From positions 1 to 46,415 of the forward strand of contig MHTK01000006.1 of the NCBI GenBank assembly GCA_001824825.1: a stretch of DNA of 46,415 nucleotides, in the 5' to 3' direction. Below the pieces are notes generated by a model. That model was given only the letters and a program-made list of their open reading frames with translations. It was not told the origin of the DNA and did no database searches. The DNA is from Candidatus Vogelbacteria bacterium RIFOXYD1_FULL_46_19 (GTDB lineage Bacteria > Patescibacteriota > Minisyncoccia > Phycocordibacterales > XYD1-FULL-46-19). Shown here one piece after another: positions 33,610 through 46,415 of the stretch; position 1 is the first letter of the stretch, and every line of letters starts with the position of its first letter. A program made the translations under genes and the position numbers.

Positions 33610-33643
33610 ACAAAAATATAGTCGCTGCGCTTCTTATTTTTGT
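33610..33643 (-). terminator. Terminator-like hairpin downstream of the tRNA-like element
   Basis: ACAAAAATA...TATTTTTGT 9-bp stem; T-rich 3' arm on the minus strand. Confidence 0.4.
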
Positions 33644-33696
33644 GGACCTAGCGAGAATCGAACTCGCGTTTCGACAATGTTCACCCTGTTAAATCC
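33643..33696 (-). tRNA. Truncated tRNA-like element (T-arm plus acceptor-like stem; no complete cloverleaf)
   Basis: Minus strand: GCGAG-TTCGATT-CTCGC T-arm, then TAGGTCC-A, which can pair (with G-U) to GGATTTA 46 nt upstream. D-arm and anticodon arm not recognisable. TATAAT at 33717-33722 upstream. Confidence 0.35.
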
Positions 33697-33761
33697 AAAA
33701 TGTTACTAGTGGTGTCATTATATCATTTGCTCGAACTTTTTTTGAGCGAGAATGAATCGTC

Positions 33762-33907
33762 CCGCCACTGCCTCGTAGAGCCTCGGCAACCCCAAAAGAA
33801 AAACACTCCTTGCATTTCTGATTTGGCGGGAGTGAAATTTCTTTTGAAAAAGGAAAGGGTGTTTTTCTTTCGGGGTTCTGCCCTCCAAGTATTCAGGCAG
33901 GTGGCGG
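33762..33907. repeat. Large imperfect hairpin adjacent to the island's left end
   Basis: CCGCCACTGCCT pairs with AGGCAGGTGGCGG; AACCCCAAAAGAAAAACACTCCTT (33788-33811) pairs with AAGGGTGTTTTTCTTTCGGGGTT (33855-33877). Confidence 0.6.
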
Positions 33908-33994
33908 AACAATGCGGACGAAGTTTTGGCAAAACTATTTTTTGGAGAAAGGATTTGGCAAAACTTCGGCTCATTCGTTTTTGAATTCGGATGT

Positions 33995-34166
33995 CGCAAA
34001 TGGAAAAGGAGGGTGAGAAGCGAATGCTTGGAGCTTCGCAAGGCCGGAGCGCGACGGCGCGAGGAGGGGTAGCGGAATTTTCCAGCAGAAAAATATCCGT
34101 GACTTGGGGAGGAATTTTCCATTTGCTCCTCTTTTTGTTTTTGAAAAATTGGGGGCGGACAGAAAA
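33995..34166. repeat. Left terminal inverted repeat of the 12.4-kb island (contains a 37-nt insertion, 34084-34120)
   Basis: 33995-34083 and 34121-34166 are the reverse complement of 46327-46415 and 46281-46326, with no mismatch seen over 135 nt. Confidence 0.92.
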
Positions 34167-34168
34167 AA

Positions 34169-34243
34169 TTGAGAAAAAGTGTTATTCATGTTAGTATAGT
34201 TGTGAGGGTTAGTTTCAACGCTCATACTTATACTATCATACTA
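34169..34243 (+). promoter_or_regulatory. Promoter/operator region of the island operon
   Basis: TTGAGA (34169-34174)-N17-TAGTAT (34192-34197); a second TATACT (34229-34234) 8 nt before ATG 34243; TAGTATAGT and ATACTAT/CATACTAT repeats suit XRE autoregulation. Confidence 0.5.
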
Positions 34244-34455
34244 TGGAAAGCAAACAAAATAGACAAATTGGGGATAAAATAAAAGTCTTTCGAGCAAAGC
34301 AAGGATTGACACAGGACGCTCTTGCGAGAAAGTGCGATATTCCCTATACAACGCTGACTAAGATTGAATCGAATGTGATAACAAAGCCGTCAATCCAAAC
34401 AGTTACCAAAATTGCCGAAGGGTTGGGAATAACCATTGATGATTTGATTAAATAA
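34243..34455 (+). CDS. XRE-family HTH transcriptional regulator
   Basis: 'IGDKIKVFRAKQGLTQDALARKCDIPYTTLTKIESN...PSIQTVTKIAEGLGITIDDLIK'. Confidence 0.92.
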   Translation: MESKQNRQIGDKIKVFRAKQGLTQDALARKCDIPYTTLTKIESNVITKPSIQTVTKIAEGLGITIDDLIK

Positions 34456-34461
34456 ATTTAT

Positions 34462-36252
34462 ATGCAATCACGAGAAATACGAAAAAAGTTTTTAGATTTT
34501 TTTAAGGAACGAGGACATATAATAGTACCCTCGTCGCCACTTGTGCCAGAGAATGATCCGTCAGTACTTTTCAATACTGCTGGCATGCAACCACTCGTTC
34601 CATATCTCATGGGTTTGCAACATCCGTCAGGATCAAAGCGTATCGCTAATGTGCAAAAATGTGTACGTACTAGTGATATTGATGAGGTTGGGGACAATAC
34701 CCATCTTACTTTCTTCGAGATGCTTGGTAACTGGTCACTTGGTGATTATTTCAAAAAAGACGCGATACAGTGGAGTTTTGAATTCTTAACATCAAAAAAT
34801 AGTGGCTTGGGGCTAGACCCACGACGTCTTTATGTAACGGTCTTTGAAGGTGACGAAAACGCGCCATGCGATAACGATGCACATAGTGTTTGGAAAGAAG
34901 TATTTGAAAATGAAGGCATGGATCCTCAAAAAAGAATCTTTTTCATGGATGCTGCTTCGAACTGGTGGAGCCCGGGAGATAATGGTCCATGTGGACCAGA
35001 TAGTGAGATGTTTTACGATGTGACGGGTGGATTGACTGAGGGCTTGACTAAAGAAGAATTTATCGCAGCTGACAAAAACCAACATGTGGTTGAAATATGG
35101 AATGACGTGTTCATGGAGTATCAAAAGAGTGATGGCAAAATTAGTGGCAAACTCAAAAACCAAAATGTTGATACTGGTTCAGGACTAGAGCGCGTTACTT
35201 GTGTGGTACAAGGGAAAGAAAATGTTTTTGACACTGATTTATTCAAACCCGTCATTAACAAAATATCGTTACTTGCGCAACAGGGTGATGAGCGGTCCAA
35301 GCGTATAATTGCCGACCATATTCGCGCTTCAGTCTTCCTCATTGCTGATGGTATAACTCCTTCAAATACTGAACAGGGTTATGTTTTGCGTCGATTGCTT
35401 CGTCGCGCGATAAGACATGCAGATAAAATTGATATAAAACAAGATTCACTCGTCTCGCTCGTGCCAATAATTGTTGAGGAATACAAAGAAGCCTACCCGA
35501 ATATCTTGGAAAAGCAGGCATTCATGGAACAAGAAGTTCTGAAGGAGGAAATGAAGTTTAGAAAAACCCTTGCTGTTGGTATCAAAGAGTTCGAAAAAAT
35601 AAACACTCCTATTATTTCTGGACATGATGCGTTTATCCTTTTTTCAACATACGGCTTTCCTTTTGAACTGACTTTGGAGCTTGCCGATGAAAAAGGATTG
35701 AAAGTGAATAAGGACGAGTTTCAGATAGAAATGGAAAAACATCAAAACCTTTCACGGACAAGTACATCAGGAAAATTTAAGGGAGGGTTGGCTAACACTA
35801 ATGAGACAACAACGATGCTCCACACAGCAACACACATTATGCTTGCAGGGTTGCGAAAATATTTAGGTGACAGTGTCCATCAGGCAGGCTCTAATATTAC
35901 TGAAGAACGTACACGATTTGATTTTACGTATGAGGGAAAAGTAGAAAGGGAGACGCTTGATCGGGTGGAAAAATATGTGAATGAAGCTATCAGCAAGAAG
36001 TGTAGCGTGGTAACAGAAATCATGGAGAAAGAAACCGCAATGAATGCGGGAGTGGAGGGAAGTTTTTGGGAGAAATACCCAGATAAAGTTACCGTGTATA
36101 CGGTAAGGTGTAGTGACGGTACAGTATATTCACAAGAGCTTTGCGGAGGCCCACATGTTGCTAATACCGGAGATGTTAAAGGAACATTTAAAATTATAAA
36201 AGAAGAAGCGTCGTCCGCTGGTGTTCGACGCATTAAGGGAGTCTTGGAATAA
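34462..36252 (+). CDS. alaS: Alanyl-tRNA synthetase, short form (catalytic plus editing domains, no C-Ala)
   Basis: 'REIRKKFLDFFKERGHIIVPSSPLVPENDPSVLFNTAGMQPLVPYLMG', 'THLTFFEMLGNWSLGDYFK', 'GPCGPDSEM', 'VEIWNDVFMEY', 'DTGSGLERV', editing motifs 'HTATHIML' and 'CGGPHVANTGDV'. Confidence 0.93.
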   Translation: MQSREIRKKFLDFFKERGHIIVPSSPLVPENDPSVLFNTAGMQPLVPYLMGLQHPSGSKRIANVQKCVRTSDIDEVGDNTHLTFFEMLGNWSLGDYFKKDAIQWSFEFLTSKNSGLGLDPRRLYVTVFEGDENAPCDNDAHSVWKEVFENEGMDPQKRIFFMDAASNWWSPGDNGPCGPDSEMFYDVTGGLTEGLTKEEFIAADKNQHVVEIWNDVFMEYQKSDGKISGKLKNQNVDTGSGLERVTCVVQGKENVFDTDLFKPVINKISLLAQQGDERSKRIIADHIRASVFLIADGITPSNTEQGYVLRRLLRRAIRHADKIDIKQDSLVSLVPIIVEEYKEAYPNILEKQAFMEQEVLKEEMKFRKTLAVGIKEFEKINTPIISGHDAFILFSTYGFPFELTLELADEKGLKVNKDEFQIEMEKHQNLSRTSTSGKFKGGLANTNETTTMLHTATHIMLAGLRKYLGDSVHQAGSNITEERTRFDFTYEGKVERETLDRVEKYVNEAISKKCSVVTEIMEKETAMNAGVEGSFWEKYPDKVTVYTVRCSDGTVYSQELCGGPHVANTGDVKGTFKIIKEEASSAGVRRIKGVLE

Positions 36253-36266
36253 AGAATATTAATTTT

Positions 36267-37292
36267 ATGAACAAACAAAAATTAACTTTCATCTGTATAG
36301 GAATAATTGTTTTAGCAAGTCTTTCTTTGGTGTTGTTGAGAGACAAAGATTTGACGAGCTCTGTCGTGCCAGAATTAGCACATGTCCGCATTGGTTGGCA
36401 GACTCCATGGGCTACGCAAGGCCAATTGACTCAGATTTTAAAATATACAGATATATTGAAGAATAACGAAATTGAAGGAGACTTCAAAGGATTTACTTAT
36501 GGTGGTCCGTTAAACGAGGCGGCGCTTGCAGGTGAGGTTGATATTATCTTTACAGCAGACCAACCAGCGGCCACTCTGCTCGCAAAGGATGAAAAGTGGA
36601 CTATCATTGGAAGGCTTATGTATAACAGAGTTTCACTCTATGTGCCACCCATGTCTCCTATAACTACATTAGCTGATCTGAAAGGAAAGACCGTAGCAAT
36701 GCCTTTTGGAGCAGCTGCACAACGTGTGGCCTTGAAAGCCGAGCAAGATGCAGGTCTTGATCCTAAAGTGGATGTAAATAACATTAATCTTGGTATTTAT
36801 GAGCAGAGCGATCTTGTTCGTGATCCCAATGCAAAAAAATGGGGCACCATAGATGCAATGGCGGGGTTTGACCCAACACCAGCGATCTTTGAAGAAAAAG
36901 GATTGGTAAAAAACCTACATGTAGGCAAAGTCGTATCGGTGATTGTAGTTTCAAATGATTTTATTAACCGCAACCCCGATTCAGTCAGTCGTTTCCTTAA
37001 ATCGTTTAACGAAGCATATGATTACTACCGAAACAACATATCGCAAGCCGACACATGGTTTGTTGCAGAGTCAGGACTTGATATTACACCGCGTGCATTA
37101 GAGATAGCGGCAGATGTAGAACCAAATCTTAAAGTAACTTCAAAAAATGAAATTCGTATTGGCTTCAATGACGAAGATTATAAGATAATGCAAGAGGCGG
37201 CTGATTTTATTTTTGATCAAGGGTTAGTAAAGAAACGAGTAATTATGAGAGAGCATGTAGACACTTCGTTTCTAGAAGAGATAGCTAAATAA
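36267..37292 (+). CDS. SsuA/NMT1-type ABC transporter substrate-binding protein
   Basis: N-terminal signal-anchor; 'VRIGWQTPWATQGQLTQILKY...GPLNEAALAGEVDIIFTADQPAATLLAK...TLADLKGKTVAMPFGAAAQRVALKAEQDAGL...FDPTPAIFEEKGL'. Confidence 0.85.
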   Translation: MNKQKLTFICIGIIVLASLSLVLLRDKDLTSSVVPELAHVRIGWQTPWATQGQLTQILKYTDILKNNEIEGDFKGFTYGGPLNEAALAGEVDIIFTADQPAATLLAKDEKWTIIGRLMYNRVSLYVPPMSPITTLADLKGKTVAMPFGAAAQRVALKAEQDAGLDPKVDVNNINLGIYEQSDLVRDPNAKKWGTIDAMAGFDPTPAIFEEKGLVKNLHVGKVVSVIVVSNDFINRNPDSVSRFLKSFNEAYDYYRNNISQADTWFVAESGLDITPRALEIAADVEPNLKVTSKNEIRIGFNDEDYKIMQEAADFIFDQGLVKKRVIMREHVDTSFLEEIAK

Positions 37293-37299
37293 TCACATT

Positions 37300-38442
37300 A
37301 TGCAAAAGAAAAAGAATCTTATTTTTGTTTCATTGGATACGGTACGGGCAGATGTTGCGTACAGTGGAAAATTCGAAGCGATAGAAAAATTAAGAAATGT
37401 AGGTGTTACATTTTTAAATACTATTTCTTCTTCTCCACTTACACCAGTCAGTCACTCTACTGTTTTTACCGGGCTACAACCGTTTAATCACGGTGTCCGT
37501 CACCTTTTTAAAGAGCAAATTAATAAAAATGTTCCGGTTTTAGCAGAGATACTAAAATCAGAGGGATACAAAACCGGAGCAATTGTGTCTTGTCCAGGGA
37601 TGAATAGGTGGTATGGATTCTCACGCGGATTCGACCACTATGATGATGAGATACCGCTTTTAGCTGACGGGAGTGATCCGCTTCAAACGGTTGATGTAAA
37701 AAAACGAGGTACGGCGCTTAAACGAGCTGAGGTTGTTATTGACAGAGCAATACAGTGGATTTCAAAAAATAAAGATGAACAGCCTTTCTTTGCCTTCCTA
37801 CACTTTTTTGATGCTCACTGGCCATATGAAGCGCCTAAGAAATTTGCAGGCGATAACATATACGAAGAGGAGGTTGCATATTCAGCTCATCATTTCGGTT
37901 TATTTATGAAAGAAATGGAAGAAATGAATCTTCTATCAAACACAACAGTTGTTTGTTTTTCTGATCATGGTGAGGATCTTGATGGTATGTATCCGAATGA
38001 CAAGGGTGGTGAAAAACTTGGACATCCCGAAGAATTAGGACATGGATGTTTGCTTTACGATCAGACGCAGAAGGTTGTTTTGATCATAAAAGATCCCTCG
38101 TTAAAAGAAGGAATAAATATTGAAGAGCAAGTAAGATTGGTTGACATCATGCCGACAACACTTGAATTATTAAACATCAAGAAAAGAGTTTTCTCTTTTG
38201 ACGGCATATCTATATTACCTGCAATTAGCGGTGAAAAGTTAAATCTTCCTGCATACTCTGAGACTTTCTATCCGGAAGAGCAAACAGTTGCTACTGGAGG
38301 GAAGTTTTTAGAAACATGTAACAAGAAGTCAATACGTCTCAAAAACTCCGAAAAGATTATTACCCATCTCAACAGTGATTACATTGAGGTTTATGATCTG
38401 AAGCAAGATCCTAATGAGATGAAAAACCTTTCAAAAAATTAA
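37300..38442 (+). CDS. Sulfatase/alkaline-phosphatase-superfamily hydrolase 1
   Basis: 'NLIFVSLDTVRADVAYSG...SSSPLTPVSHSTVFTGLQP...FAFLHFFDAHWPY...TTVVCFSDHGEDL...LGHGCLLYDQ'. Confidence 0.85.
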   Translation: MQKKKNLIFVSLDTVRADVAYSGKFEAIEKLRNVGVTFLNTISSSPLTPVSHSTVFTGLQPFNHGVRHLFKEQINKNVPVLAEILKSEGYKTGAIVSCPGMNRWYGFSRGFDHYDDEIPLLADGSDPLQTVDVKKRGTALKRAEVVIDRAIQWISKNKDEQPFFAFLHFFDAHWPYEAPKKFAGDNIYEEEVAYSAHHFGLFMKEMEEMNLLSNTTVVCFSDHGEDLDGMYPNDKGGEKLGHPEELGHGCLLYDQTQKVVLIIKDPSLKEGINIEEQVRLVDIMPTTLELLNIKKRVFSFDGISILPAISGEKLNLPAYSETFYPEEQTVATGGKFLETCNKKSIRLKNSEKIITHLNSDYIEVYDLKQDPNEMKNLSKN

Positions 38443-38452
38443 TAATAAAAAT

Positions 38453-39841
38453 ATGGGAAATATAAATAAAGTCATTATGATTTGCGTAGATACTTTGAGA
38501 GCCGACACTCTTTTTAACCGTGAGGATTTTTACTTAAAATATAATATCAAACAAAAACTTAATACACCAAATCTTGACTGGTTGGTAAGAGAATCAACTC
38601 TCTTAAAAAATTGTATTACGACATCACCGTATACTACAGCATCCCATGCTTCTTATTTTACTGGCTACTGGCCAAAACATCACTCCGTAATGGATTTTTT
38701 CAAGAATAAATTATCTAAACCAACTATTTATAATTTATTAAATAAAAAAGGTTATAAAACTTTCTTTTGCAATGACTTTCCTTTTATTCTTGGAGACTAT
38801 CTTGGTTTCAAAGAAGGCGTAGATCGTTACTATATTGAAAGTGAATTGGAATGCCTAAAGGATTTTCATAACACAGATGGTAACAAATTTGCGTTCTTCC
38901 ATTTTGCTGATGTCCATTGGCCATATGGATACCACAAGCTAAAAAGTAATAATGAATTTGACTCATTAGAAAATTTTTTAATGGAACAATCGAAAATAAC
39001 AGGGGTTCCTCTCAGTAAAAAAATAAAACCGGGGCCGATAGAAGCGATAAAGGAAGATAAAGAATTATTGCTTGAGCAAAATTATCGAATGATAATAGAC
39101 TATTACTGCAATAAAAAAGATTACAACACAGTAATGCAGTGGTATGCGGATGGAATTTCTCGTTTTGACAACAGTCGCTTCGATGAATTCATAAGGTCGT
39201 TAAAAGATTATGGACTTTTTGATGATCCAAATACATTAATAGTAATATTTGGTGATCATGGTGAGAATTGGTCGGACGAATCATACGGACATTTTAATTC
39301 ATGTGATTATAGTGTAATCAATGTTCCAGTTTTACTTCATAGCAAAAGCATTCCTCGTAAAATAATTAATGAAATAACGAGAACTATAGATATTGTACCT
39401 TCAATAATTAATTTTTTAAATGTCGATATAAAAAATGATTTTGATGGGGTTGATTTATATAGTAAAGCTCCAGATCATTCAGTCACACAATCATGGGTAT
39501 CAGATTTCAAAGAGCTGGTTGGTTTTTTTCAAGAAACAAAAAATAAAAATGAATTTATAGATGGAAAGATAAAAAGTTTTCTTCTAAAAGAAGCGGTAAT
39601 AAAAGACAACAAAAAGCTTGAGTTTAAGTATACCAATTCAGGCGAGGTTGAATATTCAAAATCTTCAATTATTAAAAATGGGCTGGAAATAAACACTGAT
39701 TTGAATTTTCAAGAGGAATTAGGAGAATACTTACGGCGTTATAATCATGATCTCGTAAATAGGTCAGATCAAAACGTAGCAATTGAGGATAAAATTTTGA
39801 ATGAGTTTAAGAATTTAGGATACTATGGTGGAGAACAATAA
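38453..39841 (+). CDS. Sulfatase/alkaline-phosphatase-superfamily hydrolase 2
   Basis: 'KVIMICVDTLRADTLF...TTSPYTTASHASYFTGYWPKHH...FFHFADVHWPYG...NTLIVIFGDHGENWSDES'. Confidence 0.85.
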   Translation: MGNINKVIMICVDTLRADTLFNREDFYLKYNIKQKLNTPNLDWLVRESTLLKNCITTSPYTTASHASYFTGYWPKHHSVMDFFKNKLSKPTIYNLLNKKGYKTFFCNDFPFILGDYLGFKEGVDRYYIESELECLKDFHNTDGNKFAFFHFADVHWPYGYHKLKSNNEFDSLENFLMEQSKITGVPLSKKIKPGPIEAIKEDKELLLEQNYRMIIDYYCNKKDYNTVMQWYADGISRFDNSRFDEFIRSLKDYGLFDDPNTLIVIFGDHGENWSDESYGHFNSCDYSVINVPVLLHSKSIPRKIINEITRTIDIVPSIINFLNVDIKNDFDGVDLYSKAPDHSVTQSWVSDFKELVGFFQETKNKNEFIDGKIKSFLLKEAVIKDNKKLEFKYTNSGEVEYSKSSIIKNGLEINTDLNFQEELGEYLRRYNHDLVNRSDQNVAIEDKILNEFKNLGYYGGEQ

Positions 39842-40535
39842 AAAAAATGAATTAAAAATGATTTGTCTCGAAGAGATTTTGAGACAAAAGACAATCATCT
39901 TTAACGAGTGTGTTATGTTTGACCAACACACAACCATTAATGGTGCGGGGATAGATTTAAGGCCTATTACCTATATTGATTTGCCTGTTTCCTCTCCTCG
40001 TTACTTAGACGCAGTAGGAGAATATATATATGGATTGCAGAAAGTCGTTAATTATCGTTCTTTATGTGGTATAGCTACGCAGGGTCTTTCTTACACATAT
40101 AGCACATCTATAAAATATAACATCCCCGCAATCTACTTTAGGAAGGAACCACAAAAATATGGCACAAATTCTCATCTTGCCGGAAAATTGACACGGGACC
40201 AAACTCCTACACTAATAATTGACAATTTGATCTACTCGGGTAAAACACTCAATTTAGCAGTATCCAAGTTAAAAGAGTCGGATATCTCGATCGCCGGTCT
40301 ATTCACTGTTGTTAAGTTTGAAACTTCTTTTAGTGAGCTCATTGTTGATAATAAATTATTTTATCTCTTAACAGTCAAAGAGATCTATGATTATTTAATT
40401 CAAAATAACTATTTTCCAAAAAATATTGAAAAATACATTAAGCTTTTTTTAAAGGATCAAACCTTATTTCATTCAAAATCAGAGATTTATCTACAATATT
40501 TATCAGAATTAAAGAAGTCAAAAACTAGCTTTTGA
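39825..40535 (+). CDS. Phosphoribosyltransferase-fold protein (OPRT-like)
   Basis: 'RSLCGIATQGLSYTYSTSIKYNIPAIYFRKEPQKYG...PTLIIDNLIYSGKTLNLAVSKLKES' PRPP-loop-like motif; overlaps the preceding ORF by 17 nt. Confidence 0.75.
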   Translation: MVENNKKNELKMICLEEILRQKTIIFNECVMFDQHTTINGAGIDLRPITYIDLPVSSPRYLDAVGEYIYGLQKVVNYRSLCGIATQGLSYTYSTSIKYNIPAIYFRKEPQKYGTNSHLAGKLTRDQTPTLIIDNLIYSGKTLNLAVSKLKESDISIAGLFTVVKFETSFSELIVDNKLFYLLTVKEIYDYLIQNNYFPKNIEKYIKLFLKDQTLFHSKSEIYLQYLSELKKSKTSF

Positions 40536-40548
40536 CTATATCGATTAT

Positions 40549-41280
40549 ATGTCACAGTCAAAAATTAGCGTAGTAGCAATTGAAGGTTTACATAATTCAG
40601 GGAAAAGTACCCAGATTGCAGATTTATATTCTAATTTGAAAAAAGAAGGAATTTTTGTTGTGGTTTTAAGAGGCCACGGATTTCGTTCAGGCACAGGCTT
40701 AGATATTAATGATCCTGTTTCTTCGTGGTGGCAAAAACATTACCCCTTATTTATGGAAGCAGGACAAAAGGGAAGAGAATCTTTTATGGAGGCAGAAGCT
40801 AGAGCGACAAATAAATTGTACCAAGAGTTATTTGATATTAAAAATAATCTGCTTGAGAAAATGAAGAAAAATAAGTTCGGTAGAGCTGTGATTCTTTTAG
40901 ATAGATCTATAGTGTCTCGTCTCTTTATCTGGCACGGACATTCAAAGAACCCAAACTTTAAAGATTTACTTTCATTTACATACAAAAATACACATAACAA
41001 AGAAACAAAGATAATGCCTATTCCGGACTTATTAATTGTTCTCAATGTTTCTCAAAAGTTATTGCTAAAAAGAAATAAAAACAAGTCTGAGAGAAAAGAT
41101 AAAATTCTTCTTAATAAGAAAATTATATTGAGTCGTTACCAAGATTATATTAAACTAATTAATAATCTCCCAAAAAATATTAAAGAACGGACTTTTATTA
41201 TTAATGCAGGAAGGTCAAAAACTGCTGTTCAAAAAGAAATCCTGAAATTAATTAACAGCCAGTTATATTTTAAAAAATAA
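40549..41280 (+). CDS. Thymidylate-kinase-like P-loop kinase
   Basis: 'VVAIEGLHNSGKSTQIADLYSNLKKEGIFVVVLRGHG...AVILLDRSIVSRLFIW...PIPDLLIVLNVSQKLLLKR'. Confidence 0.8.
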   Translation: MSQSKISVVAIEGLHNSGKSTQIADLYSNLKKEGIFVVVLRGHGFRSGTGLDINDPVSSWWQKHYPLFMEAGQKGRESFMEAEARATNKLYQELFDIKNNLLEKMKKNKFGRAVILLDRSIVSRLFIWHGHSKNPNFKDLLSFTYKNTHNKETKIMPIPDLLIVLNVSQKLLLKRNKNKSERKDKILLNKKIILSRYQDYIKLINNLPKNIKERTFIINAGRSKTAVQKEILKLINSQLYFKK

Positions 41281-41283
41281 ATT

Positions 41284-41991
41284 ATGCAACATTTAGAAAT
41301 TCTGCCAAATCTAAAAGGAAAGACCGCCGTTATTTATGAGAGAATTTGGTTATTAGAGGAACTTGAATACTTGAAAGAATCAGAATCTGATCATGTTCTG
41401 GCTATTGATAGAAGGATCTACTTGAAAGACGACCATGTTTTTACTGCGATGCAAGGTTCATCAATGATTGCATCGCTAGCCGAACGACTTATACAAGCTG
41501 GGGTTAAAAGAATTATTAGGATAGGAACAACCGGAAGTCTTCACGACGAACACAAGCTATTTGAAATAATTATTCCGATGGCAGTATATAAAGATGAAGG
41601 GACAAGTAATCAATATATTGATAGCATTTTCCCTTGTTTGTGTGATTTTGAATTATCTTCTAAGATTTGTAATCTTTTGCATGTAGCTGGGCACACTCAT
41701 TATCGAGGAGTCACATGGACTACTGACGGACGATGGGTTGAATCTTTAGACAAGATGCACAAATTAAAGAAATGGGGCGTTCTTTCGGTTGACATGGAAA
41801 CATCTGCACTTTATACCGTTTGCTTATTTAATAAAATACCATGCATCGCTTTAAATTTTGTCTCTGATTTTCCAATGAAATCAGAAAAAAATGGCTTAAG
41901 AGGAATACCAGATGATTACGAAATATATAAAAAGGAACTTTTAATAAATGTGGATAAAGTAACTCAGCTAATAGTTAAAGGGAAAATATAG
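41284..41991 (+). CDS. Nucleoside phosphorylase superfamily (PNP/UDP) protein
   Basis: 'MQGSSMIASLAERLIQAGVKRIIRIGTTGSLH...GVTWTTDGRW...GVLSVDMETSALYTVCLFNKIPCIALNFVSD'. Confidence 0.85.
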   Translation: MQHLEILPNLKGKTAVIYERIWLLEELEYLKESESDHVLAIDRRIYLKDDHVFTAMQGSSMIASLAERLIQAGVKRIIRIGTTGSLHDEHKLFEIIIPMAVYKDEGTSNQYIDSIFPCLCDFELSSKICNLLHVAGHTHYRGVTWTTDGRWVESLDKMHKLKKWGVLSVDMETSALYTVCLFNKIPCIALNFVSDFPMKSEKNGLRGIPDDYEIYKKELLINVDKVTQLIVKGKI

Positions 41992-41994
41992 GCC

Positions 41995-42726
41995 ATGAAA
42001 TTTGATACTTCCTTTGAAAAATTTGCGAATGAGTATGATAATGTCATGGGTGATAATGGGGATTATACTCACTTAAAAACTATCACACCGGCACTTTTTG
42101 ATCTTATTAAAAACCCAAAAGGTCTTAAAATTTATGATGTTGGTTGTGGTAACGGATATATTGCTCGTCGTCTTATGCGAGAAGGAGCAAAAGAAGTTTT
42201 TGCGTCTGATATTTCAGAAACCATGATTCATATTGCAAAATCTCGATATCCTATACATTCTATTATTTATTCTATAAGAGATATGTCGGACTTTTCTGGA
42301 TTTAAGGAGGGCTATTTTGACTTAGTTGTTATGAATATGTCGATTTCTTACTCATCAAATATTAAAAAATTAGCAAAGGAAATTGCACGAATTTTAAAAA
42401 CTGGAGGGCGATTTGTTTTTACACTTGATCATCCATTAAAATATTCAGCATATAAGGTGTTTGGTAGGACTGATTTCGATATTACTTTGAAGGACAGCGA
42501 TTATCTTAACGAGAAAGAAAAAACTACTTATAATCATTGGACAAAGCAACAAAATGCTTTAAGGATATACACTCGACCATTGGGATCTTATATTAACGCT
42601 TTAGGAGAATATGGGCTTTTTGTAAAATTTATTAGAGAACCACAATCAAAAGCTGAGTATAAAGATAAAAAAGTAAAAACTAGTATTCCGTTTAAAATTG
42701 CTGTAGAGGTTGTTAAGGTGGTATAA
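41995..42726 (+). CDS. Class I SAM-dependent methyltransferase
   Basis: 'LKIYDVGCGNGYIARRLMREGAKEVFASDISETMIHIAKSRYP...FDLVVMNMSISY...EIARILKTGGRFVFTLDHP'. Confidence 0.9.
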   Translation: MKFDTSFEKFANEYDNVMGDNGDYTHLKTITPALFDLIKNPKGLKIYDVGCGNGYIARRLMREGAKEVFASDISETMIHIAKSRYPIHSIIYSIRDMSDFSGFKEGYFDLVVMNMSISYSSNIKKLAKEIARILKTGGRFVFTLDHPLKYSAYKVFGRTDFDITLKDSDYLNEKEKTTYNHWTKQQNALRIYTRPLGSYINALGEYGLFVKFIREPQSKAEYKDKKVKTSIPFKIAVEVVKVV

Positions 42727-42731
42727 GTAAT

Positions 42732-43763
42732 ATGAGAAAAATATCAAAAATAAAAAAAGGTGCGAAAGTAGCAATTCTCTCTCCGTCCTTTGCGGCACCG
42801 GGTAAATGGCCTGCTGTATATGAATTCGGCCTTAAACGACTTCGGGAAAACTTTGGGTTAATTCCCGTGGAGTTTCCGGCAACTAAAAAAATTGGTGCTT
42901 CAAAGGAAGAAAGATCTAAAGATTTAATTAACGCATTCGAAAACAAAAATATAAGTGCGATTATTACTTCTCTCGGGGGTAATGATCAAGTGACTTATAT
43001 TAAGAATCTTCCCAAAGAACCTTTTATTAAAAACCCTAAAGCATTTTTTGGTTATAGCGACAATACTCACTTTATGAACTTTCTTTGGCTCTGTGGTATA
43101 CCATCGTATTATGGCGGAGCAGTGTTAACACAGTTTGCTATGAATGGAGATATGGATGAATTTACTATGCGTTATTTAAAGTACGCACTTTTTGAATCTG
43201 GAGAAAAGGAACTCAAAGTAAGCGAAGTTTTTAATGATGTTGGATTAGATTGGGGCGATAAAAATCTACTGGACAAAAAGCGCATGTATGAAAAAAATGA
43301 TGGGTGGTTTTGGGATGGAAATAATGACGCTAAAGGAATAAGTTGGGGTGGTTGTGTTGAATCTATTGATGAGATATTACGTCATGGAATAAAGATGCCA
43401 ACACTCGAACAGTTTGAACAATGTATTTTATTCATGGAAACTTCAGAGGAAATTCCGTCATCCGATTATGTATTTCGAGTATACCGTGCACTTGGTGAAC
43501 GGGGCATACTAGAGCGTGTAAAAGGCATATTAATTGGACGGCCAAAAGCTTGGGAGTTTAACAAACAGCAATCATTGGAAGAAAGAAAAGCATACCGCGC
43601 AAAACAAAGAGAAATAACACTTGATGTTATCCGCCGGTACAATAAAACTGCGCCAGTAATTCAAAACATGGATTTCGGACACACTGACCCGCAAATTTGC
43701 TTGCCATATGGAAAGTCTGTGCGAATTAATTCTTCTGCAAAAAAGATTTTTGCAGAATTTTAA
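42732..43763 (+). CDS. S66-family peptidase, MccF/LD-carboxypeptidase-like
   Basis: 'KVAILSPSFAAPGKWPAVYEFGLKRL', 'FFGYSDNTHFMNFLW' nucleophile elbow, 'GISWGGCVESIDEIL', 'ILFMETSEE', 'NMDFGHTDPQICLPYG' His motif. Confidence 0.92.
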   Translation: MRKISKIKKGAKVAILSPSFAAPGKWPAVYEFGLKRLRENFGLIPVEFPATKKIGASKEERSKDLINAFENKNISAIITSLGGNDQVTYIKNLPKEPFIKNPKAFFGYSDNTHFMNFLWLCGIPSYYGGAVLTQFAMNGDMDEFTMRYLKYALFESGEKELKVSEVFNDVGLDWGDKNLLDKKRMYEKNDGWFWDGNNDAKGISWGGCVESIDEILRHGIKMPTLEQFEQCILFMETSEEIPSSDYVFRVYRALGERGILERVKGILIGRPKAWEFNKQQSLEERKAYRAKQREITLDVIRRYNKTAPVIQNMDFGHTDPQICLPYGKSVRINSSAKKIFAEF

Positions 43764-43765
43764 AT

Positions 43766-44239
43766 ATGAACAATGAACATAAAAAACATATGGCAGAAGC
43801 GATTGCTCTTTCAAAAGAATCCATTTCTTCTGGCGGAGGACCATTCGGAACAGTGATAGTAAAGGACGGGAAAGTTGTTGGTCGTGGTATAAATCGCGTC
43901 ACAGCATGGAATGACCCCACGGCGCATGGAGAAGTTGTTGCTATTCGTGAAGCATGTAAAAATCTAAACTCATTTCAGCTTGATGACTGTATTATTTATA
44001 CAAGTTGTGAGCCTTGCCCTATGTGTCTTGGGGCAATTTATTGGTCTCGTCCGAAAGCAATTTATTTTGCAAATACAAGGGAGGACGCCGCCTCTATTGG
44101 TTTTGATGATGCTCTTATTTACGCAGAAATTAATGTTCTTTATTTGAATCGGAAGAGACCATTTCATCAGATAATGCGAGAAGAAGCGATTACCGTATTT
44201 CAATCGTGGGCTGAGAAAGAAGGCAAAATCGAGTATTGA
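43766..44239 (+). CDS. Guanine-deaminase-like CDA-superfamily nucleobase deaminase
   Basis: 'GGPFGTVIVKDGKVVGRGINRVTAWNDPTAHGEVVAIREACKNLNSFQLDDCIIYTSCEPCPMCLGAIYWSRPKAIYFA...GFDDALIYAEI' resembles B. subtilis GuaD closely. Confidence 0.9.
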   Translation: MNNEHKKHMAEAIALSKESISSGGGPFGTVIVKDGKVVGRGINRVTAWNDPTAHGEVVAIREACKNLNSFQLDDCIIYTSCEPCPMCLGAIYWSRPKAIYFANTREDAASIGFDDALIYAEINVLYLNRKRPFHQIMREEAITVFQSWAEKEGKIEY

Positions 44240-44250
44240 TTATTATAAAA

Positions 44251-44991
44251 ATGCAAAATATATTAAAAAAATTAATAGTTTTGGTGGTGATACTTTTTTT
44301 GTGGCAATTACTATCGTCCAGTATCCACACGATCATTCCTTCTCCTATTGAGGTTTTTACTGCATTATACAATCTTTCGGTCCAGGGGGATATTTTTATA
44401 CATATTTTTGCTAGCTTAAAGAGGGTTGTTGTTGGTTTTTTGATTGCTACATTTCTTGGGGTAGGACTTGCTTTAATAACTGGGTATTACAAAAAGATTG
44501 ACGTATTTCTTAAGCCACTTGTTGAATTTCTACGTCCAATTCCCCCAATAGCATGGATACCTATTGCAATATTAATTTTTGGTCTTGGTGACATGTCGGC
44601 ATATTTTATTGTTTTTATCGGAGCTTTTTTCCCAATATTTACCAATAGTTTTTTTGGTGTCAGCTCCCTGCCTGTTATTTATGAAAATATTGCACACTCA
44701 TTTGAAATAAAAAATTTTATTTTTGTGAAAGATATACTCTTTAAGTTTTCCTTGCCATATATTTTCACAGGTTTAAAAATAGGTATTGGTATGGCATGGA
44801 TGAGTGTTATAGCGGCGGAACTTATCGGAGCACAATCAGGTTTAGGATATTTTATACAGCTCAACAGACTTTTATTGAGAACTGATAATGTTATCGCGGG
44901 AATGATTTTGATCGGGTTTATTGGATATATGCTAAGTTTGCTTTTACTTACAGTGGAAAAAATAATCATTCCGTGGAGTATTAAGAAATAA
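44251..44991 (+). CDS. SsuC/TauC-type ABC transporter permease
   Basis: 'PSPIEVFTALYNL...SLKRVVVGFLIATFLGVGLALITGYYKKIDVFLKPLVEFLRPIPPIAWIPIAILIFGLGDMSAYFIVFIGAFFPIFTNSF...WMSVIAAELIGAQSGLGYFI'; alternative ORF start at 44236. Confidence 0.92.
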   Translation: MQNILKKLIVLVVILFLWQLLSSSIHTIIPSPIEVFTALYNLSVQGDIFIHIFASLKRVVVGFLIATFLGVGLALITGYYKKIDVFLKPLVEFLRPIPPIAWIPIAILIFGLGDMSAYFIVFIGAFFPIFTNSFFGVSSLPVIYENIAHSFEIKNFIFVKDILFKFSLPYIFTGLKIGIGMAWMSVIAAELIGAQSGLGYFIQLNRLLLRTDNVIAGMILIGFIGYMLSLLLLTVEKIIIPWSIKK

Positions 44992-44994
44992 TTT

Positions 44995-45717
44995 ATGTTG
45001 GAACTAAAGAACATCTCCCATTACTATAGGAATCAATCACGAAATACCGAAATTTCGGTGTTTGAAAACTTTAATCTTTTGATTGGAGAAGGAGAAATTG
45101 TCTCCCTCGTGGGAAAATCTGGTTGCGGAAAAACAACATTGGTAAATATTATCGCTGGATATACAGAACCAACCAGCGGTAGTGTTTTTATGAATGGAGA
45201 GAAAGTCGTTGCTCCTGGCAAGGACAGAATTGTAATCAATCAAATACACGATCTTTTTGATTGGATGACGGTATATCAAAATATGAGACTTGTGAGTAAT
45301 GATGATAATGATATTAATAAGTATCTTTCAATGACAAGGCTCAGTGAGTTTGCTGATGCATATCCATACGAACTTTCGGGTGGCATGAAGAAGAGATTAT
45401 CCCTTGCCAGGGCACTGGTTGTTGACCCAAAATTTATTATAATGGATGAACCCTTTAATTCTCTCGATTATCAATTGAGAGAAAAATTCCAAGAAGAATT
45501 ATTAGATATTGTTAGAAAATCTAAAAAAACTATTTTGTTTGTTACGCATGACATAGAAGAAGCAGTATTTTTATCTGATAAAGTTATCATACTCTCAGGC
45601 AGACCAACACAAATAAAAAAAGAAATTGTGATTTCATTTTCAAAAAACAAAGTTGACTCAATAAGAGACACGGAAGATTTCATATTTCTTAAAAAGAAAA
45701 TAAAAGAAGAAATGTAA
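44995..45717 (+). CDS. SsuB/TauB-type ABC transporter ATPase
   Basis: Walker A 'GKSGCGKTT', signature 'LSGGMKKRLSLARAL', Walker B 'FIIMDEPFNSLD', 'THDIEEAV'. Confidence 0.95.
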   Translation: MLELKNISHYYRNQSRNTEISVFENFNLLIGEGEIVSLVGKSGCGKTTLVNIIAGYTEPTSGSVFMNGEKVVAPGKDRIVINQIHDLFDWMTVYQNMRLVSNDDNDINKYLSMTRLSEFADAYPYELSGGMKKRLSLARALVVDPKFIIMDEPFNSLDYQLREKFQEELLDIVRKSKKTILFVTHDIEEAVFLSDKVIILSGRPTQIKKEIVISFSKNKVDSIRDTEDFIFLKKKIKEEM

Positions 45718-45743
45718 TTCAAAAGCTTAAGTTTGCAGGGAGC

Positions 45744-45779
45744 ATCCCCGCCGTCTCCTCTTTTTCCCACGGCGGGGAT
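45744..45779 (+). terminator. Strong hairpin after the operon (terminator or first stem of the noncoding tail)
   Basis: ATCCCCGCCGT-ctcctctttttccc-ACGGCGGGGAT perfect 11-bp stem; no T-run after it on the plus strand. Confidence 0.45.
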
Positions 45780-45827
45780 ATTGAGCGCGAACGGGAGGGT
45801 GGGTCAAGCGCATTTGTATTTGAGCCT

Positions 45828-46190
45828 CGGACATTTCCGCTAGGGCGTCCTGACTCACGGATGAGCGCCGCCGTTATCTTGCAATGCAGAAATCCCAAGC
45901 GAAAGCGATACCACATACAGTCGATATGAAAACGAGAAGGGGGGTTGTGCGAGGGCGGACTCCGAAGGCACGCTAAACGAAGCCAGAAAGCTCTAAATGA
46001 CCGCTAAACTCTCTAAAGTACTGAATACTCTAGCAAACCACTGCGAGGGGAGGAGACCGAAGCTGGGGGAAGGATTCCTTCCTTCCCCCAAATAGCATGG
46101 CGCCCGAGCTCCCGCTCTGCAGAGCGGGAGTGCGAGGAAAAGCGCCAAACCTAGACATCTAGGCGCGAGTAGCCCTAGCGGAAATGTCCG
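45828..46190. ncRNA. Candidate large structured noncoding RNA in the island's right end
   Basis: Closed by the perfect 19-nt inverted repeat CGGACATTTCCGCTAGGGC (45828-45846) / GCCCTAGCGGAAATGTCCG (46172-46190). Internal hairpins TGGGGGAAGGA/TCCTTCCCCCA, CTCCCGCTCTGCAGAGCGGGAG, CCTAG-acat-CTAGG and a GCGAAAGC (GNRA) loop. No credible ORF. Confidence 0.5.
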
Positions 46191-46280
46191 AAGCGAATGC
46201 CGAGGATGGACTCCGTAGTCAAGGACGAACACTAGCAGAGAAATGACCGAGACAATACTGAAATTGAATTTGTTTTTCTG

Positions 46281-46415
46281 TTTTCTGTCCGCCCCCAATT
46301 TTTCAAAAACAAAAAGAGGAGCAAATGGAAAATTCCGCTACCCCTCCTCGCGCCGTCGCGCTCCGGCCTTGCGAAGCTCCAAGCATTCGCTTCTCACCCT
46401 CCTTTTCCATTTGCG
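46281..46415. repeat. Right terminal inverted repeat (truncated by the window end)
   Basis: Reverse complement matches 33995-34083 and 34121-34166. Confidence 0.92.

Follow-up and report, generated by a model that had tools for sequence, protein, structure and literature searches.

The window, i.e. the whole stretch of DNA analyzed here, comprises the first 46,415 nt of contig C6 (G000:C6:1–46415) of Candidatus Vogelbacteria bacterium RIFOXYD1_FULL_46_19, a member of the candidate phyla radiation (CPR). C6 is 326 kb long, and the genome (G000) consists of 707,755 bp in 8 contigs. CPR bacteria have tiny genomes, yet their defence and metabolic genes are variable, and to our knowledge few mobile elements have been described in them. 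The subject of this study is an island of ~12.8 kb (with its extended ends) at the right end of the window, which contains 13 genes, all in one direction, between long inverted repeats, and which abuts a tRNA gene.

The first gene of the island encodes a helix-turn-helix (HTH) regulator of the Xre/Cro type (34243–34455, + strand, as are all the following genes; PF01381). It is followed by genes for an alanyl-tRNA synthetase (AlaRS; 34462–36252, NF002436), an SsuA/NMT1-like ABC substrate-binding protein (36267–37292), two sulfatase/alkaline-phosphatase superfamily enzymes (37300–38442 and 38453–39841, both PF00884), a PyrE-like phosphoribosyltransferase scoring below the family cut-offs (39825–40535), a thymidylate-kinase-like kinase (40549–41280, PF02223), a nucleoside phosphorylase/nucleosidase-like enzyme (41284–41991, PF01048), a class I methyltransferase (41995–42726, PF08241), an S66 LD-carboxypeptidase-like peptidase (42732–43763, PF02016 and PF17676), a cytidine/deoxycytidylate deaminase-like (TadA-like) enzyme (43766–44239, PF00383), a TauC/NrtB-like ABC permease (44236–44991, PF00528) and an SaoA/NrtCD-like ABC ATPase (44995–45717, PF00005). 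With this cargo the genome would gain an AlaRS, an ABC importer and nucleotide/phosphoester enzymes, probably for scavenging. Pfam scans of the island genes revealed no transposase or integrase, as a first-pass annotation of the window had stated, and no tyrosine recombinase. The S66 peptidase, used as a probe for the same cargo elsewhere, had scattered homologs, none with a neighboring cargo gene in the short stretches examined.

Among the sequences compared, the island AlaRS matches the AlaRS of other families at 63–65%, as against 52–55% for its own family and 44% for the native copy, and by these comparisons is best described as a horizontally acquired second alanyl-tRNA synthetase. In the native AlaRS gene (C6:64018–65875), the reading frame breaks at a run of seven G, and the sequence forms a long branch; the island gene is intact. 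These features raise the possibility that the island copy now supplies the essential enzyme, the alternative being a sequencing error.

The terminal inverted repeat is real. BLAST of the window against itself aligned 34166–33995 with 46281–46415 in inverted orientation (E = 2e-43), with 135 of 135 aligned bases (89 + 46) identical; the coordinates given in the first-pass annotation were correct, the right end being cut by the window edge. The sole difference between the aligned arms is 37 nt present only in the left copy (34084–34120, + strand), bounded by GGAATTTTCC direct repeats, and a listed arm identity of 76% for this island reflects these 37 nt and the gap of Ns described next. The window stops at a scaffold gap of 16 Ns (C6:46416–46431), past which the repeat resumes, giving arms of 33948–34166 (+) and C6:46281–46481 by BLAST. 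The sequences at the gap edges (...CCATTTGCG on one side and GCGACATCC... on the other) form one continuous string in the left arm, and the gap is therefore probably just an assembler break within the repeat. Set against the arms of relatives, the left arm extends outward to about 33706; at full length (33706–34166, +), it is homologous to the 373-bp arms of G028 and the 314-bp arm of G042. The right arm occupies 46281–46415 (−) in the window. Both arms are flanked on the outside by unique sequence.

A search of 61 genomes showed the repeat to be modular. Its outer (33940–34013) and inner (34104–34166) parts co-occur in inverted orientation around other segments, and the middle 90-bp piece is a separate interspersed repeat, resembling a repetitive extragenic palindrome (REP). 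Most of this REP-like module (34012–34103, +) is found at the same position in both arms of the window, which is hard to explain without sequence exchange between the arms, and it is absent from the arms of G028 and G042. Many genomes of the order also contain the ~90-bp repeat on its own. Matches to the arm region were found in 29 of the 61 genomes, with up to 14 per genome. The two arms of an element are mostly 92–100% identical (86% in one case); comparison of different elements gave a median of 84% over shorter stretches. The shift to AT-rich composition noted on first pass was confirmed in part, with a GC of ~0.31–0.34 at 38–43 kb and of ~0.40–0.42 at 34–37 kb, versus ~0.45 for the backbone.

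The island is an insertion. The same-family relatives G013, G008 and G009 keep the flanking genes together without it (UvrC-kinase-regulator-Ddl, and tRNA-Ala/MscL or the next downstream genes); in G000, the end of Ddl (33039) and the start of MscL (near C6:47759) are 14.7 kb apart. What the relatives show is the synteny without the island, and not the island without its repeats. The right end abuts the 3' end of tRNA-Ala(CGC) (C6:46530–46605, −), and a core is shared by both boundaries, with the tRNA 3' end GGTCCACC on the right and the arm followed by CACC on the left; the same docking is seen in relatives. The target of this island is a tRNA and not the transfer-messenger RNA (tmRNA). The latter was rejected as a candidate: a weak Rfam match at 33640–33686 is the 3' half of a tRNA-Ala(GGC), described at the end, and the real tmRNA gene lies on contig C5.

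A search with the inner part of the repeat and the HTH gene in 399 genomes of the same order revealed paired inverted copies flanking segments of roughly 2–10 kb in about ten further genomes. The enclosed genes differ from island to island. In G028, arms of 373 bp and 97.9% identity enclose Mrr, DnaJ and TPR genes, and G042 carries MsrA/B and DsbD-like genes. Cargo in other islands includes BsaWI, NgoPII, AlwI or DpnII type II systems and a type I system, and there are also GmrSD, Z1 or an AAA_5 ATPase, a Trp/Tyr-type tRNA synthetase and acyl-activating enzymes. The HTH gene is common to many of these islands. Its closest counterparts come from other families and are 90–94% identical in DNA and mostly 96–99% in protein, while the Ddl proteins of G000 and G028 are just 48% identical. 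This disparity indicates horizontal movement.

The HTH gene searched alone gave 80 loci, nearly all in CPR bacteria. An inverted repeat spans the gene in 31 of these, and a contig end cuts many of the remainder. A tRNA 3' end lies ≤700 nt upstream in 23 of the 47 loci testable for this feature, versus 3.2 expected. At one locus (L093, G063:C62, 296–1477), the HTH island starts with a Trp/Tyr-type aminoacyl-tRNA synthetase, and it may be that islands carrying extra synthetases recur. Some HTH relatives (L168, L170, L179, L180 and similar loci) are in metagenome-assembled genomes labelled Gammaproteobacteria, Bacteroidota, Flavobacteriaceae and Nitrospirae, which could be due to transfer or to binning contamination.

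In several genomes, the cargo island is accompanied by a second inverted-repeat unit, which begins a few bases within a tRNA 3' end and contains one gene, encoding a large serine recombinase (LSR) of ~510 aa. This layout is seen in the single-contig genome G083 (locus L134), where tRNA-Ala is followed by the LSR gene within arms 2620–2743/4241–4364 (124 bp, 100% identical), and then by a cargo unit with arms 4360–4651/9558–9850 (293 bp, 97%). With the arms of the LSR unit denoted P' and those of the cargo unit P, the successive junctions read tRNA-CCACC-P', inverted P-CCACC-P', and P-CCACC-flank. The same plan, with matching cores at the junctions, was found on a 602-kb Harrisonbacteria contig (L151) and, at tRNA-Gln, on a Ryanbacteria contig (L158). 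Read across these loci, the plan is tRNA·core·[P'-LSR-P']·core·[P-cargo-P]·core·B'. From this junction anatomy, the repeats are best read as attachment-site arms: attL corresponds to tRNA·P' and attR to P·B', and the two modules are separated by a complete attP in inverted orientation. The Ryanbacteria contig also holds a second inverted-repeat unit in tandem (L158, 13660–16640), with a small hairpin where the LSR unit would sit.

The presence of an LSR is by itself not a discriminating correlate across the order, since 281 of the 399 genomes have one. We compared 20 LSR loci drawn from the order-wide list, scoring as G161-like those enzymes ≥30% identical to that of G161. Six of the nine G161-like loci have inverted repeats of 137–169 bp that start 4–8 nt inside a tRNA 3' end (tRNA-Leu, Ala, Thr, Gly, Thr and Arg), as opposed to none of the 11 generic LSR loci. 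For LSRs found next to cargo islands, the count of tRNA-end inverted repeats was 4/4. In addition, in 14 of 14 elements a TTC motif matching the tRNA T-loop is more distant from the core in P than it is in the tRNA, by 4–6 bp, versus 0.55 elements expected from shuffling. Structural work on the Listeria (A118/LI) integrase shows a displacement close to this one, the zinc-ribbon motif lying 5 bp further outward in attP than in attB (PMC3783163).

The LSR genes have the same orientation in every unit examined, and in L097 (1403–1415), L134 (2506–2624) and other units the LSR frame ends inside the opposite-strand tRNA gene; the LSR C-terminus would therefore change on excision, as is also reported for dsiB of Dehalococcoides (PMC3146451). 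Forms without an LSR were also found. In G118, tRNA-Ser is joined directly to P, and in G028, G083 (at tRNA-Asn) and L158 just a short hairpin precedes the following P arm, which looks like removal of the LSR from between its P' arms. Through the LSR unit, the DNA of G083 and G361, two genomes of different families, is 93.7% identical over 2.3 kb, and their cargo differs, being a DpnII system and an N6_N4 methylase + Z1 set, respectively. This pairing supports an exchange of cargo behind a common recombinase. A scan of viral contigs with the LSR alignment gave 13 loci.

No PF07508 match, indicative of an LSR, was found anywhere in G000, although the linked units of relatives have it. The left end of the window's island has a full P arm, with AGTGGTGTCATTATATCATTTGCTCGAAC carrying the motif at the distance from the core typical of P (assigned by eye against the tRNA). 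A putative attR can be placed at 33705–33735 (−), consisting of a P half-site and core (CACC) beside the chromosomal flank, with a T-loop-like TTCGA at the P-type distance, on a by-eye alignment with the P ends of relatives. On the right, tRNA-Ala(CGC) is followed, going inward, by ~50 nt resembling the start of P' (assigned by eye) and then by the inner P arm; neither the LSR unit nor the outer part of the right arm is present. With no recombinase, P·core at the left, and a short P'-like remnant plus truncated arm at the right, the natural reading of the island is as a cis-mobilizable derivative. It would not be a transposon but cargo needing an LSR in trans, and at most a non-autonomous derivative. 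The proposal on first pass of a cargo-carrying non-autonomous element mobilized in trans holds in kind, given the insertion, the ends shared by unrelated cargo and the lack of an LSR in the genome, but its implied form of a transposon with terminal inverted repeats and target-site duplications is not supported, as the ends resemble LSR attachment arms at a tRNA 3' end.

Taken together, we consider it likely that the island represents the cargo module of an integrative element docked at a tRNA, the ends of which are LSR attachment-site arms. It seems to be one of many related CPR islands, apparently moved by an LSR that G000 has lost. The LSR would recognize the conserved T-arm of the tRNA as one attB half, while the P arm, in which the T-loop-like motif is displaced outward by a few bp, would serve as attP. 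A circular element would insert at the tRNA 3' end, leaving the tRNA intact, and could be excised by attL × attR recombination with a directionality factor. The island in the window would be movable now solely if an LSR were supplied in trans, and gene conversion or inversion between the arms may maintain their near-identity.

Several observations weigh against this interpretation. G000 has no LSR and the right end is truncated, so that membership in the family rests on the arms, the HTH gene, the tRNA and the left end, and the ~50-nt P' remnant was assigned by eye. Mobility is read from sequence, and not from a circle, a strain-level empty site or a reaction. An inverted internal attP is unexpected in a canonical LSR element, equal use of two attP sites does not predict a uniform LSR gene orientation, and the motif is shifted by 4 or 6 bp as well as by 5. 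A more elaborate version, possible but rather doubtful, is a two-cassette CPR mobile system, in which P'-LSR-P' and P-cargo-P cassettes, with inverted att arms and an inverted attP between them, are exchanged, stacked and trimmed at tRNA 3' ends, one LSR serving a shared pool of defence and metabolic cargo.

Two other explanations are improbable to about the same degree. A classical non-autonomous DDE transposon, with long terminal inverted repeats, a transposase in trans and target-site duplications, would account for the long near-identical ends, the enclosed cargo and the related copies across genomes. Insertions, however, recur at tRNA 3' ends, and the linked unit holds a serine recombinase. 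A DDE target-site duplication was rejected on reading the junctions of the window and its relatives, as the outer junctions share the tRNA-derived core alone. Pfam scans revealed no transposase domain in the cargo genes of the window and related islands, a few cargo ORFs having no Pfam match. The second explanation, also raised on first pass, is a phase-variable invertible segment, in which recombination between the arms by an LSR or RecA flips the cargo and switches its expression, mobility being secondary or lost. It is kept in play because the inverted att sites at the ends of each module, or plain recombination between arms, could flip the cargo; also in its favor are arms of mostly 92–100% identity, and the REP-like module in the same place in both, which points to sequence exchange between arms. 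Its chances are small because LSR gene orientation is constant in the units examined, the cargo is wholly different between genomes, relatives lack the island, and tRNA docking is left unexplained. Least credible is an assembly artefact, i.e. a fold-back or chimeric join at the scaffold gap. In its favor, the 16-N gap at the window edge interrupts the repeat, and many related contigs stop within their arms. Such breaks, however, are ordinary for short-read contigs at long inverted repeats. A contig-end fold-back was rejected because unique flank common to relatives lies past the gap; unique sequence also lies beyond the left arm, the flanking genes are the same in relatives, and single-contig G083 and long contigs show this architecture without interruption.

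The proposed LSR-dependent cargo module has partial counterparts in known systems. Tycheposons of Prochlorococcus are tRNA-docked cargo islands that use tyrosine recombinases. Ours are likewise tRNA-docked cargo islands in streamlined bacteria, but the linked units of relatives encode serine recombinases, and tycheposons are not known to have long inverted arms or a serine recombinase. Tycheposons are cited in PMC10872708. In the ssrA islands of Dehalococcoides, the recombinase DsiB is a CcrB-like serine recombinase, and integrase-less neighboring islands were proposed to be cis-mobilizable by accretion (PMC3146451). Shared features are an LSR at the end of an RNA gene, the 3' end of its gene overlapping attL (as for dsiB), and tandem islands, many without an integration module, with a cargo history unlike that of the integration module (PMC3146451). 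The ssrA islands differ in having a tmRNA target, a 20-bp direct repeat and a six-gene module (PMC3146451), versus many tRNAs and a one-gene module here, and here long inverted arms of its own bound each module, an inverted attP separating the modules. Cis-mobilizable elements (CIMEs; PMC5704250; the term is also used in PMC3146451) are likewise att-bounded islands without their own recombinase, which need the enzyme in trans. They are described as decayed integrative and conjugative or integrative and mobilizable elements (PMC5704250), whereas no conjugation genes were seen here and the boundaries are long inverted repeats. The A118/LI integrase has a similarly pseudo-palindromic attP, with the motif displaced outward in attP relative to attB (PMC3783163); here one attB half is apparently the tRNA T-arm, and the arms far exceed half-sites of ~25 bp. 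Serine-recombinase islands at RNA genes, and integrase-less islands beside them, are thus already known (e.g. PMC3146451). The papers searched contained no description of long inverted arms on each module with an inverted internal attP, and none joined serine recombinases, CPR/Parcubacteria and tRNAs or inverted repeats, most subscription papers and preprints being outside the search.

These islands would provide a concrete vehicle for gene variation in CPR bacteria, namely a family of tRNA-side islands recognizable from their ends. Restriction-modification systems are frequent in their cargo, and essential genes, for example those for aminoacyl-tRNA synthetases, occur in some. Their repeats explain the breakage of many CPR contigs. 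The predicted use of the tRNA T-arm as half of attB may also yield LSRs targeting tRNA genes in general, and the two-cassette system, if true, would be functionally integron-like but built on serine recombination.

A further tRNA gene lies at the insertion site. The flank on the B' side contains the 3' half of a split tRNA-Ala(GGC) gene (33640–33675, −), whose 5' half lies at C6 about 46626–46660 (−), on the far side of tRNA-Ala(CGC). Once joined, the two halves are folded by ARAGORN into a perfect 72-nt tRNA-Ala(ggc); neither the standard nor the intron mode of ARAGORN found the split gene. The split is in the anticodon loop, and the insert, whose two ends pair with each other (CCTGTTAAAT/ATTTAACAGG), contains tRNA-Ala(CGC) and the whole island. 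An intact tRNA-Ala(GGC) copy is present at C6:49482–49553. A scan for other tRNAs nested inside tRNAs gave 4 matches, of which at least 3 look like tRNA-array artefacts. Between Ddl and MscL in G013 (L232, G013:C3), an apparent tRNA-Ala 5' half runs into sequence resembling the REP-like repeat, which suggests that the Ddl-MscL spot is a repeated target.

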